Part shown: positions 8,419-13,711 of the stretch, piece by piece
Position numbering within the stretch: the stretch's first letter is position 1
How the letters are laid out: every line of letters starts with the position of its first letter
IMG/VR virus record: IMGVR_UViG_3300042294_002890
Span: 1 to 20,536 of that record
DNA length: 20,536 nt
Strand: one strand, 5' to 3'
Source of the DNA: a virus
Position numbers and translations under genes: made by a program
The notes under the pieces: generated by a model
Database searches by the model: none
The model's input: only the letters and a program-made list of their open reading frames with translations
Told to the model about the DNA's origin: nothing

Positions 8419-8449
8419 TTGCACATAAGTACAAACCTTTGTACATTTG
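8419..8449 (+). promoter_or_regulatory. Rightward promoter with embedded palindrome, copy 1
   Basis: TTGC (8419-8422), 19 bases, TACATTTG (8442-8449), fitting the Bacteroidota promoter pattern. A perfect inverted repeat GTACAAA-cc-TTTGTAC (8429-8444) overlaps the downstream box, so a bound dimer would block or help the polymerase. Similar cassettes lie at 8596 and 10945. Confidence 0.65.
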
Positions 8450-9211: not shown

Positions 9212-9727
9212 ATGAAAACGGTATTTAATTCAAACACTCAATTGGCCCAAACTTTTGCGATTCAATCACAAAGCCACGGCCGCACAAAGTCAATGTTTTT
9301 CGAATATGGCACGGCCTATTCCTACGGTTATCACTATATAGGAGCAAAGTTCGTAACGGCTAACAACGGGGAAAAAGTTTGCTTTGTTAATTCAAGATAT
9401 TATAGCCCAACGACTGCAAAACATTGCGGCCAACTTTGGAACGCAATCCCCGACGGTATAAAAGTTTTTCGGGTTCCTTTGCCGCGTGTTTTTGACTTGG
9501 ATCAATTACCTACAATTATCAAAGTAATGACCGAACAAGCGGAAGGCTATTTATTTAAACAATTAACAGCTAGAAAAAACACGGTTAATTTTTATATCGC
9601 TAACAACTTGATAAGCGATATAAAAGAAATCAGCGAGCTATTTGGGCTAAATGTTCCTAGAAATTGGGACTTCAAAAACTACGAACAAGCAAGACAAAAA
9701 ATATATACAATTCAAAACGCGGCATAA
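9212..9727 (+). CDS. Unknown protein with SYGYH ... YSPTTAKH motif
   Basis: 171 residues. Two conserved-looking blocks, AYSYGYHYIGAKF (about 34-46) and CFVNSRYYSPTTAKHCGQL (57-75), match a family of unknown function found in many phages and plasmids, in which an N-terminal beta region holds 'YG.HF' and 'YS.TT..H'. The C-terminal half is helical. I do not know the activity. It has a leader similar to that of its neighbours and overlaps nothing; the next gene begins 1 base after its stop. Confidence 0.8.
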   Translation: MKTVFNSNTQLAQTFAIQSQSHGRTKSMFFEYGTAYSYGYHYIGAKFVTANNGEKVCFVNSRYYSPTTAKHCGQLWNAIPDGIKVFRVPLPRVFDLDQLPTIIKVMTEQAEGYLFKQLTARKNTVNFYIANNLISDIKEISELFGLNVPRNWDFKNYEQARQKIYTIQNAA

Positions 9728-9728
9728 T

Positions 9729-9962
9729 ATGAAACGAATAAACAACGACGTAAACGGGAACCCTAGATTTGTAGTTCATTTTTACGACCTATTAAACGAC
9801 GGCGAAGGCGAAGGCCTTACTATTTTAGAAAAGTTTGATCTAGTGGTAAAAAAGTCCCGTAAAGTAGGCGGTAAAATGTACCGTGGTAAAGATTTTGGTG
9901 GCGGGATTGTGTTCCAATCGTACGACATTCAAACAACAATAAACAAAGCAAAGGGGATTTAA
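9729..9962 (+). CDS. Small unknown protein
   Basis: 77 residues from the ATG at 9729, one base after the previous stop. An in-frame ATG at 9651 would overlap the preceding gene by 77 bases and is rejected. The sequence is basic in the middle (VVKKSRKVGGKMYRGKDFGGG). No family recognised. Its stop codon lies within the loop of a terminator hairpin. Confidence 0.65.
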   Translation: MKRINNDVNGNPRFVVHFYDLLNDGEGEGLTILEKFDLVVKKSRKVGGKMYRGKDFGGGIVFQSYDIQTTINKAKGI

Positions 9963-9975
9963 TTCCCCTTTTTTT
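9950..9975 (+). terminator. Rho-independent terminator over a stop codon
   Basis: AAAGGGGA / TCCCCTTT stem of 8 bp, loop TTTAAT, then four further T. The stop codon of the 9729 gene is in the loop, so a translating ribosome would cover the hairpin and could couple translation to read-through. Confidence 0.75.
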
Positions 9976-9995
9976 CAACCCTAGACAAAAACAAA

Positions 9996-10184
9996 ATGAA
10001 AACGCCTTTATTTTCAATCCACTCAATTAAAGCGCTCGAAAATCGGGCCTTTTCCGTGTTCCGCGCAAATATTGAGAACACGCCCGAAAAATTAGAATTA
10101 GCTAAAAATCTTTATCCTAGTTCGCATTATTATTTTGAATTTCATTTTAACCCGATTTCGGTAAATGTAATTTTCGGCGGTTAA
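9996..10184 (+). CDS. Small unknown protein
   Basis: 62 residues beginning 20 bases after the preceding terminator, with leader ACAAAAACAAA. Sequence MKTPLFSIHSIKALENRAFS, then a helical middle and an aromatic, beta-like end (YYFEFHFNPISVNVIFGG). No family recognised. It is enclosed between two terminator hairpins, each lying on a stop codon, so its expression should depend on read-through or an unseen promoter. Confidence 0.6.
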   Translation: MKTPLFSIHSIKALENRAFSVFRANIENTPEKLELAKNLYPSSHYYFEFHFNPISVNVIFGG

Positions 10185-10198
10185 TAAACCGCTTTTTT
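10177..10198 (+). terminator. Rho-independent terminator over a stop codon
   Basis: GCGGTT / AACCGC stem, loop AATA, then TTTTTT. The TAA of the 9996 gene is in the stem and loop boundary (10182-10184), the same arrangement as at 9950. Confidence 0.75.
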
Positions 10199-10200
10199 CT

Positions 10201-10275: not shown

Positions 10276-10464
10276 ATGGTCGACCTATTCGAATATCCTG
10301 AACAATGGCCCGCTAATTTGCGGGCTATTTTGGCGCATTACATGGCAAAGGAACAAACCTATACTAATCTAATACGACTTGAAAACGAATTATTTAAAAT
10401 AGGCTATTCAATTGAGTACGGTTTAGATTGTGTCGCGTATAACTTGCAAAAAATACAGCCTTAA
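10276..10464 (+). CDS. Small unknown protein
   Basis: 62 residues: YPEQWPANLRAILAHYM, then LENELFKIGYSIEYGLD and a terminal VAYNLQKIQP. The P-x-W-P-x2-L-x2-I-L and G-Y-x-I-E-Y-x-L-D pattern is one I recognise from small proteins near replication genes of Bacteroidota plasmids and phages, with no known function. It follows the two-storey hairpin leader and is the last gene before the repeat array. Confidence 0.7.
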   Translation: MVDLFEYPEQWPANLRAILAHYMAKEQTYTNLIRLENELFKIGYSIEYGLDCVAYNLQKIQP

Positions 10465-10571: not shown

Positions 10572-10929
10572 GTAGTATAAAACAAAACCACTGGACGAAA
10601 CCAAAAGCAGTAGTATAAAACAAAATTAGTAGTGGAAACACGAGGAAAAATTAGAGCGCTGATCTGTAGTATAAAACAAAATAAGTAGTGGAAAAAATAA
10701 CCGGTTCGAACCGGTTCCAAAATTGAAAACCCAAACCAACTAGACGAAAACAAAATGAGTAGACGAAAACATAAACAGCGCCGCAATCTAGTGGAAAACA
10801 AAACCAGTAGTGGAAAACAAAATCCGTAGTGGAAAATAAAATTTCTCAGCCGCTAGTGGAAATTAAAACCGCTAGTGGAAATTAAAACCACTCAAACAAA
10901 AAAAATACCGCTGGTGGAAAACAAAAATA
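10572..10929 (+). repeat. Array of 14 degenerate 19-bp repeats
   Basis: Units in the form STAG-NNN-AAAACAAAA-N3, for example GTAGTGGAAAACAAAATCC. They begin at 10572, 10591, 10610, 10629, 10666, 10685, 10740, 10759, 10788, 10807, 10826, 10853, 10872 and 10911. Within each block the units are exactly 19 bp apart (blocks of 4, 2, 2, 3, 2 and 1). The core triplet has only three forms: TAT, ACG or TGG. The 107 bases before the array (10465-10571) and the 73 after it show no gene. The design fits iterons bound by a protein, as in an origin, a partition site or a control region. Confidence 0.85.
10699..10716. repeat. 18-bp perfect palindrome inside the repeat array
   Basis: AACCGGTTCGAACCGGTT reads the same on both strands. 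It abuts repeat unit 6 and is much richer in G and C than its surroundings. It is a likely dimer-binding site or cruciform seed in the middle of the array. Confidence 0.75.
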
Positions 10930-10944
10930 AATTTTACAATTCAC

Positions 10945-10977
10945 TTGCAATTAATTATACAGAAGTTTGTACATTTA
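10945..10977 (+). promoter_or_regulatory. Rightward promoter with degenerate palindrome, copy 3
   Basis: TTGC (10945-10948), 21 bases, TACATTTA (10970-10977). The palindrome is decayed (TACAgaagTTTGTA, 10958-10971), but the right arm and the box match copies 1 and 2. It lies just after the repeat array and should drive the genes from 11003. Confidence 0.55.
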
Positions 10978-11002
10978 CATCACACTAAAACACACACAAA
11001 AA

Positions 11003-11242
11003 ATGCTAAAAGATCACCACTTTATTTTTGAGCAATCGGGATTCAGTCTCGAGCTTGAATCTTTCGAGAACGAAGGAATTGTTCTTGACCTTTATTTCGG
11101 TAATGGAAAATCGCTCACGCTAGAACTTTACGACTGTTTAACAGAAAAATTCTCTGACCATTACCGCACGATTTGTGCAATTCTTGATCCTTTTATTATT
11201 GAACAATTAGAAAACAACGTACAATTATGCTTTACGAAATGA
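11003..11242 (+). CDS. Small unknown protein
   Basis: 79 residues from the ATG at 11003. An in-frame ATG at 10967 lies in the promoter box and is rejected. The sequence alternates short beta-like segments (FSLELESFENEGIVLDLYF, SLTLELYD) with an acidic C-terminal helix. It carries the leader ACTAAAACACACACAAAAA. It is the first gene after the repeat array and overlaps the next gene as ATGA. Position suggests an early regulatory or replication role; no family recognised. Confidence 0.7.
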   Translation: MLKDHHFIFEQSGFSLELESFENEGIVLDLYFGNGKSLTLELYDCLTEKFSDHYRTICAILDPFIIEQLENNVQLCFTK

Positions 11243-11421
11243 TGACCGCCACAGAATACGGAGTATTGCGTGGCTTTAGCGAAAAATCAACAAGAGTTCA
11301 CCAGATCATCCGGTCTGGAGTTAATCCGCCCGAGTGGGTGCATCCGCCTAGAAAGCTAGGAAATCAATGGGTAGTTTTTGTTTCAACTGAATGGATAGAA
11401 AATGGTAGAGGAAATAATTGA
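11239..11421 (+). CDS. Putative excisionase/MerR-like HTH protein
   Basis: 60 residues from the ATG at 11239, which overlaps the previous stop as ATGA (an earlier in-frame ATG at 11227 is less likely). TATEYGVLRGFSEKSTRVHQ followed by an IIRSG turn and PRKLGNQWVVFVSTEWIENG follows the plan of small winged HTH_17/excisionase-type proteins: 'T..EYA...G.S...V...I..G', then a beta wing ending in 'W.I'. It would bind DNA. As the nearest regulatory-type protein to the repeat array it is a candidate binder of the array or of the promoter palindromes. Confidence 0.6.
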   Translation: MMTATEYGVLRGFSEKSTRVHQIIRSGVNPPEWVHPPRKLGNQWVVFVSTEWIENGRGNN

Positions 11422-12771: not shown

Positions 12772-12984
12772 ATGACACATAAAGAAAAAGCAATAGAAAT
12801 TTATACTAAAATGTTTAATGAAATTTATAACTCTCATTCAACTGATTTTGTAGTAAGGCAATGCGCTTTAATAGCAGTAAATGAGATAATTAATTCCAAT
12901 CCTCATTCAAATCCTTTAAATACTGAAGTGTATTCAACAATGGATTGGTGGCACGAAGTTAAACAAGAACTAGAAAAACTATGA
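12772..12984 (+). CDS. Small conserved-type phage protein
   Basis: 70 residues: KEKAIEIYTKMFNEIY, RQCALIAVNEIINSNP and a terminal WWHEVKQELEKL. A helix with A-L-I-x-V-x-E-I-I followed by a W-x-E-V-K-x-E-L-E-K-L end is a pattern I recognise in small proteins of Bacteroidota phages, with no known function. It is wholly helical and could bind another protein. Its stop overlaps the next start as ATGA, so it is coupled to the HTH protein. Confidence 0.75.
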   Translation: MTHKEKAIEIYTKMFNEIYNSHSTDFVVRQCALIAVNEIINSNPHSNPLNTEVYSTMDWWHEVKQELEKL

Positions 12985-13427
12985 CATCGCTTAATCAAGA
13001 ACAGAAAGACGAAATAGTTAGGCTGTATAAACTTAAAGTAATGAATAAAAATATAGCAACTATTTTAAATATTAGTAGGCACATAGTAAACAATTACATA
13101 TACAAAGACTACTTGCTTACAAATGAAAGAGCCAAAAATACGTGCGCTTACATGAAGGATGCGGATCAAGTAATTGAATTATATGTTAAAGGTCTTCCGT
13201 ACAAAGAAATTATGTACATGACTGGTGTAAAATACCATCATTTGTGCGAGATTATAAAACTTACACCAAAAAGAAGAATTGATCCTTTATCTATAAAATT
13301 AGTTAGGCAAATAGAGAGCATGGTAGAGGAAAATTGGAGAACTTGCGACATAGCAAAAGAGATGAATTTAGACTACAATCGGGTCTCACATTGGGTGAGA
13401 AAAGCACGAAAGGAGGGTGTACACTAG
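12981..13427 (+). CDS. Protein with three helix-turn-helix units, candidate iteron binder
   Basis: 148 residues. Three helix-turn-helix-like units can be seen: 7-41 (EIVRLYKLKVMNKNIATIL...ISRHIVNNYI), 61-94 (QVIELYVKGLPYKEIMYMTG...LCEII) and 105-144 (LVRQIESMVEENWRTCDIAK...NRVSHWVR). Such repeats are typical of sequence-specific binders of direct repeats. No catalytic motif is seen. The last codons are part of the first GTGTACAC octamer of the array at 13417-13686, and the prim-pol gene follows that array, so a role as origin-binding or autoregulatory protein is a good inference. Confidence 0.7.
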   Translation: MTSLNQEQKDEIVRLYKLKVMNKNIATILNISRHIVNNYIYKDYLLTNERAKNTCAYMKDADQVIELYVKGLPYKEIMYMTGVKYHHLCEIIKLTPKRRIDPLSIKLVRQIESMVEENWRTCDIAKEMNLDYNRVSHWVRKARKEGVH

Positions 13428-13686
13428 TGTACACTAAGTGTACACCTAAGTGTAAACCAAAATCGGCCTCCATTGGCTCCAATCGCAATAAGTGAACACT
13501 TTGAACACTTTTTGACAAAAATGAAAAAAAATAAATTTTCACCTAGTCAAAAAAAATAGATTATAAAAAAAAGTGTAAACCTGTAAACCTAGCGCAAAAA
13601 ACGGCCTAAAATCCCGCTAATTTAAGCGTATTCGCACTTTAGGGGGGTTTACACTAGGTGTAAACTAAGTGTAAACTTGTGTACAC
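13417..13686 (+). repeat. GTGTAMAC octamer array, candidate replication origin
   Basis: Octamers GTGTACAC or GTGTAAAC start at 13417, 13427, 13438 and 13450 (left cluster), at 13573 with a variant at 13581, and at 13647 (inverted), 13658, 13669 and 13679 (right cluster); GTGAACAC at 13492 is a further variant. Spacing within clusters is 10-12 bp, so all sites face the same side of the helix. Between the clusters is AT-rich DNA and a tandem GAACACTTT pair (13494-13511). The array fills most of the 329-base gap before the prim-pol gene. Confidence 0.8.
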
Positions 13687-13711
13687 TTTTTTGCCAAAAA
13701 CAGCTAAAATT

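Follow-up and report, generated by a model that had tools for sequence, protein, structure and literature searches.

A conserved, oriented repeat array upstream of a predicted early promoter in a lineage of uncultured phages

The window analysed in this study is an IMG/VR virus record of 20,536 bases. Head and packaging genes (capsid, protease, portal and terminase) occupy the minus strand in its left part, and early genes encoding an ERF annealing protein, an exonuclease, a multi-HTH protein, a primase-polymerase/DUF3987 protein and a methylase occupy the plus strand in its right part. A repeat array is located between a small gene (10276-10464) and gene 11003. The source phage is uncultured and probably infects Bacteroidetes, a host assignment based on the promoter type and on the similarity of its ERF to that of Riemerella phages. 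Among named phages, ERF was up to 66% identical to the Riemerella phage proteins, and no match was found for gp12981 or gp11227. A host search with the primase among 84,980 species genomes revealed no relative.

The array comprises 14 units of 19 bp in six blocks (4, 2, 2, 3, 2 and 1 units) spanning positions 10572-10929 on the plus strand. Block A (10572-10647) holds four units starting at 10572, 10591, 10610 and 10629, the last of which is degenerate; block B (10666-10703) holds units at 10666 and 10685, the latter degenerate; block C (10740-10777) holds two TAGACG-type units at 10740 and 10759; block D (10788-10844) holds three TAGTGG-type units at 10788, 10807 and 10826; block E (10853-10890) holds two TAGTGG-type units at 10853 and 10872; and block F (10911-10929) is a single promoter-proximal unit. 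The 19-bp register is kept inside the blocks only, and the block starts differ by 94, 74, 48, 65 and 58 bp. This arrangement of units, blocks and 19-bp steps had been described in a first-pass annotation of the same DNA and was confirmed by autocorrelation, TRF and a motif model. The self-match at lag 19 was 0.499, against 0.321 ± 0.024 in 2000 dinucleotide shuffles, and the shuffle maximum at any lag from 5 to 59 (0.429) was below the observed value. TRF independently detected period-19 arrays. The motif model recovered 14 of the 14 units and a mean of 0.8 (maximum 4) in shuffled sequence, a test that is partly circular in that the model was built from the units, which does not apply to the autocorrelation.

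The conserved unit is longer than the form that the first-pass annotation assigned to it, STAG-N3-AAAACAAAA, and its N3 is not free: there is also a preference for C bases a little ahead of TAG and for CC behind the A-run, and N3 is mostly TGG, TGT, ACG, TAT, AGT or CGG. The accompanying suggestion that 19 bp lies near two helical turns, so that a bound protein would face one side, is weak in that form: 19 bp is not 21 bp but about 1.8 turns, and units at strict 19-bp steps leave one face of the helix. The region contains no convincing gene, as annotated. Minus-strand open frames exist, but they are broken by step changes of 8-10 bp between relatives; these changes are not divisible by three and the spacers are mosaic, which rules out a hidden gene, and no reading frame crosses the region in relatives. 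The 19-bp register itself is retained in many of them, so that neither of the outcomes named as refuting in the first-pass annotation was observed. Rejection of a CRISPR array was also borne out: such an array has identical repeats set apart by unique, evenly sized spacers, whereas these units are back to back and the spacers irregular.

Downstream of the array lies a predicted sigma-A promoter of the Flavobacteria type (10945-10977, plus strand; TTGC...TACATTTA). In the flavobacterial sigma-A promoter, the -7 consensus TAnnTTTG occupies -12 to -5 (PMC9723704), and this placement puts the predicted start near 10982 and the core centre of the last unit near -65. The block F unit begins 39 bp after the previous unit and lies 33 bp before the -33 TTG. 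The second unit of block E, which corresponds to the conserved second unit from the promoter in relatives, has its core centre near -104 by the same placement. The last core is upstream of the promoter, and no unit overlaps it. Two other good plus-strand promoters in the window, at 8419 and 8596, have no units. Both are strong, of flavobacterial type, and share the spacer palindrome ACAAACCTTTGT, a possible common operator. A leftward promoter at 10950 in the window was not kept in relatives read by eye and was rejected. Minus-strand promoters made by the repeats themselves (TTTTG every 19 bp, resembling a TTTG box) were also discarded, as only 2 full matches occurred in 45.8 kb of arrays.

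Relatives were sought with ERF, the primase, gene 11003 and the repeat itself, which yielded some 280 metagenomic phage loci. The array was present at the same place in all 94 distinct upstream stretches cut from IMG/VR loci that carry gene 11003. Conversely, 71 contigs were recovered by the repeat alone, and in these gene 11003 followed the array wherever the contig was long enough, excepting the second array of L193. That 11.7-kb IMG/VR contig carries two different arrays facing in opposite directions, each with its own downstream genes, and appears to be two related phages joined together; its reverse-strand site belongs to a second full array. Of 19 records checked for the motif TAGTGKAAAAC, 15 contained it, in nearly every case as a single one-strand cluster at the array's place, and in near-complete genomes the core was confined to the array cluster, single strays apart.

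Core, orientation and spacing were counted in 87 non-redundant regions. TAGTGKAAA occurred 607 times in the forward direction, with transcription, and never in reverse. From 1010 liberal matches, the unit consensus is roughly AA-N-CC-N-TAG-TGK-AAA-A-C-AAAA-C-C. The number of units per region ranges from 5 to 24 and shifts among close relatives on the ERF tree, and inter-unit steps are mostly 19, 29, 27, 39 and 17 bp. The promoter-proximal end is far more regular: the last two units are 39 bp apart in 75 of the 87 loci, and the distance from the last unit to TTGCA (the -33 TTG) is conserved, as for an upstream regulatory array, at 32-35 bp in 73 loci and at 26-27 bp in 11. The 39-bp proximal arrangement spans most of the ERF tree with few changes. 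In a second clade these two distances are instead mostly 33 or 21 bp for the last pair of units and 26-27 bp for the last unit to TTGCA.

The common steps in relatives (17/27 and 19/29/39) differ by 10 bp, and these differences are largely inherited rather than independent. When distances were counted once per distinct spacer, the 10-bp signal was R = 0.35, an odd/even signal was stronger (R = 0.46), and periods of 9-12 all scored. Helical phasing was therefore set aside as evidence, since inheritance of a few lengths explains the distances equally well. The distances between units are overwhelmingly odd (17, 19, 27, 29, 33, 37 and 39), also when counted once per distinct spacer (R = 0.46, period 2); this bias likely stems from inheritance of a few lengths.

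Strict orientation would also suit an RNA element, with upstream transcription running through the array and producing repeated UAGUGG-AAAAC units that fold or are bound by a protein, and the plus strand of the window does fold better than shuffles (z -3.2). Across 24 relatives, however, the plus-strand z averages -1.5 with many values near 0, no Rfam match of note was found, and the array's position upstream of a conserved promoter leaves it out of the early transcript, so that we consider a role as RNA highly improbable. A stoperator-like roadblock, in which a protein on oriented sites halts upstream read-through into the early operon, is very unlikely for other reasons. Mycobacteriophage stoperators are asymmetric sites with one orientation relative to transcription, spread through the genome (PMC9283540), and the many asymmetric sites of the array, oriented singly to transcription, resemble them. 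Stoperators, however, are scattered in temperate phages that have a repressor, whereas the array sites all fall in one interval of apparently non-temperate phages; no immunity-type repressor was found, HTH_3 being absent from six near-complete relatives, and the fixed promoter distance is left unexplained.

That distance is likewise not needed by a packaging (pac) site or another terminase recognition site. Terminase subunits of several phages bind repeat clusters, and the relatives have overlapping contig ends, both of which would fit such a site. The contig ends, however, lie at unrelated places relative to the array, and the likely small terminase gene is 2.3 kb off on the opposite strand, which leaves the pac reading with very little probability. 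A partition (centromere-like) site, which the first-pass annotation had offered, is disfavoured: profile searches of six near-complete relatives found no AAA_31 (ParA) or phage integrase domain. With HTH_3 also undetected by these searches, the phages appear to be virulent.

Sequence constraint was compared among 74 loci. The two proximal cores were 94% and 92% identical between loci (mean pairwise), the spacer between them 78%, and the DNA just upstream (distal flank) 47%; four-fold degenerate sites of gene 11003 were 48% identical, against the 92-94% of the proximal cores. Pattern-based unit picking inflates the core figure, but columns outside the selection pattern were also invariant (AAAACC after the second core and TACC before the first). 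Even the promoter's own -33 box varied more than the proximal units did. By these comparisons, the units appear to be under purifying selection beyond the local neutral level, and the array is, judged by its conservation, real and functional. The first-pass proposal that the repeats form a large region controlling the 10945 promoter was supported by the fixed distance and orientation, by the constraint being strongest at the proximal units and by the co-occurrence of the array with the driven genes. On this sequence evidence, we consider a transcriptional role of some kind likely.

A second type of site is embedded in the array. In the window, a double palindrome, AACCGGTT-CG-AACCGGTT, occupies positions 10699-10716 and has no strand. 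An AACYRGTT palindrome pair occurs in 32 of the 87 arrays, with its middle bases varying and its symmetry kept, and it was restricted to the array in both full sequences checked that carry the pair. This pattern suggests that the palindromes are the operator of a second protein.

The first two genes after the array were examined as candidate partners. Gene 11003 (11003-11242, plus strand) encodes 79 aa with a predicted fold of four strands and two helices, and it is present wherever the array is; the model is confident (pLDDT 93) and has no known relative and no match to a DNA-binding fold. Gene 11227 (11227-11421, plus strand) encodes a 64-aa protein, the proposed array binder, for which a winged helix-turn-helix fold of the MerR/excisionase type is predicted. 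Its model (pLDDT 85) consists of a strand, two helices, a two-stranded wing and a helix. Most of the named fold matches in a viral library were phage HTH, excisionase or MerR-like proteins, none with a Foldseek E below 0.001, and the Pfam HTH_17 match was weak (E = 0.13, in 2 of 17 members). Both the helix region EKSTRVHQIIRSG of gp11227 and the core of the DNA unit are invariant. In ten contigs that carry the primase and no detectable genes 11003 and 11227, the array was absent and each contig had 0-1 stray core matches. The joint absence of the array and both genes in these relatives, which are all distant (primase about 46-70% identical) and some of which are partial contigs, is suggestive of a tie between them. 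The N3 triplet TGT accompanies one gp11227 type (VWPEEWVYPP); this covariation was set aside, as it follows relatedness. Taking the predicted fold into account, gp11227 probably binds the array units.

Our favoured explanation, to which we give about an even chance of being correct, is that the repeats form an oriented upstream control array for the 10945 promoter, with gp11227 as the binder and activation as the favoured effect. The promoter would drive an early operon running 11003-11227-11402-ERF-exonuclease and onward. A phage DNA-binding protein, most likely gp11227 as the second product of the operon, would occupy neighbouring TAG-TGK-AAAAC units, with every copy oriented towards the promoter. 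The last of these units, near -65, would place the bound protein within reach of RNA polymerase, and the remaining units would recruit further copies, so that promoter output would track the accumulated protein and the early operon would be under autogenous control. Activation would be likelier than repression because no unit overlaps the promoter. The effect on transcription, its sign, the cooperative loading and gp11227 as the binder are all points that we infer. Several observations sit less easily with this explanation. Most of what points to gp11227 is co-occurrence within a single phage lineage, a pattern expected from shared ancestry by itself, and its winged-HTH matches are weak; the second clade has its last unit 26-27 rather than 33 bp before the -33 box, a shift that does not amount to one full turn of the helix; and a simple activator would hardly seem to need more than five units.

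The same control region may instead be bound by gp12981 (the multi-HTH protein), gp11003 or a host protein, which we regard as rather unlikely. The tie of gp11227 to the array is one that we infer, the co-occurrence of gp11003 with the array is identical to that of gp11227, the HTH matches of gp12981 are clear, and a host protein would explain the constancy of the core. However, gp12981 adjoins a conserved repeat region of its own (13410-13690), which is a more natural target; the predicted fold of gp11003 has no DNA-binding match; and the phage promoters 8419 and 8596, where sites for a host factor might also be expected, have no units.

Known systems provide several parallels to the proposed control by gp11227. 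BldC of Streptomyces is a 68-residue MerR-like winged-HTH protein that binds head to tail on direct repeats of varying number at the promoters of genes under regulation (PMC5859096). Like BldC, gp11227 is small and predicted to be a single-domain winged-HTH protein (64 against 68 aa), and the array also consists of direct repeats in one orientation and varying number at a promoter. In contrast, BldC repeats are 9 bp (AATT-N4-C), whereas the array has a core of 10-12 bp every 17-39 bp; this wider spacing, which holds for most steps and departs from the 9-10-bp steps expected of a BldC-like system, argues against the favoured explanation, and gp11227 is a candidate binder with a weak fold match. 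Excisionase-type winged-HTH filaments (lambda Xis and RdfS; PMC11963761) share the fold class of the proposed binder and the head-to-tail assembly on DNA proposed for it, but no integrase was found in the array phages, and the array sites are specific and widely spaced. A more elaborate model, which we consider unlikely as it stands, is a dosage-tuned virulent-phage enhancer. The number of its oriented sites, which varies between close relatives (5-24), would determine how strongly the early operon is switched by a BldC/Xis-like phage protein that loads in head-to-tail fashion, starting at the distal units and proceeding to the fixed proximal pair. The array is a variant of known oriented binding-site arrays; its site number, rapid turnover behind a frozen proximal pair and small candidate protein are unusual, and no paper on it was found in the open-licence literature. 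If the proposed control is correct, an element that ranks among the most constrained non-coding DNA in a widespread lineage of uncultured phages would be a promoter control array whose candidate protein partner is small and open to immediate testing, and it would offer a natural series of 5-24 sites on one promoter that is useful for studying the effects of site number and spacing on transcription. TAGTGKAAAAC clusters can serve as a marker for the lineage and its early promoter in metagenomes.

A replication origin had also been proposed for the array; it could be an iteron-type origin or replication enhancer whose initiator binds the 19-bp units and opens adjacent A+T-rich DNA. Iterons are 19 bp in plasmids F and P1 and 17 bp in RK2 (PMC4980987), and 19 and 17 bp are the two commonest short steps in the array; in both cases direct repeats of one orientation lie close to the gene of a winged-helix protein. 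At the top of the PDB fold matches of gp11227, although weak (E = 0.06), are winged-helix domains of the iteron-binding protein RepE, and the cumulative G-C skew turns near the array, but this turn coincides with the change of gene strand. Unlike these iterons, the array has no Rep gene, with no Rep family found among its neighbours by Pfam and PHROGs scans, its unit number varies widely, and it is fixed to a promoter. Iteron sets usually have no fixed distance to a promoter. Moreover, the array phages have a separate origin-like region, and phages with the same primase exist that have no array, a comparison that bears on this primase only, as the array-less phages may use another site. An origin at the array is thus disfavoured, and we consider it quite unlikely.

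The separate region, 13410-13690, lies between the multi-HTH and primase genes and contains GTGTACACTA/GTGTAAAC repeats in steps of about 10 bp on both sides of an A+T-rich core. In relatives, GTGTACAC/GTGTAAAC repeats were found to the left and right of the A+T-rich core in this interval, which measures 311-334 bp in all clades examined and whose order and sequence are closely kept, in contrast to those of the distal array. It appears to be a more natural origin candidate than the array because it has the anatomy of an origin and adjoins the gene of a DNA-binding protein. That gene, at 12981-13427, encodes 148 aa with apparently three successive HTH motifs (Pfam HTH_7 at the start and HTH_23 at the end).

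Minor features were noted to the left of the array. Terminator-like hairpins with T-runs, at 9950-9977 and 10180-10199, precede the small genes 9996 and 10276, which may have their own expression timing as a result. Positions 9651-9962 encode a relative of TreK (PF24229, E = 2e-18); the gene of TreK itself lies within the terminal repeats of Staphylococcus phages, and the relative occurs here in an unrelated phage type.
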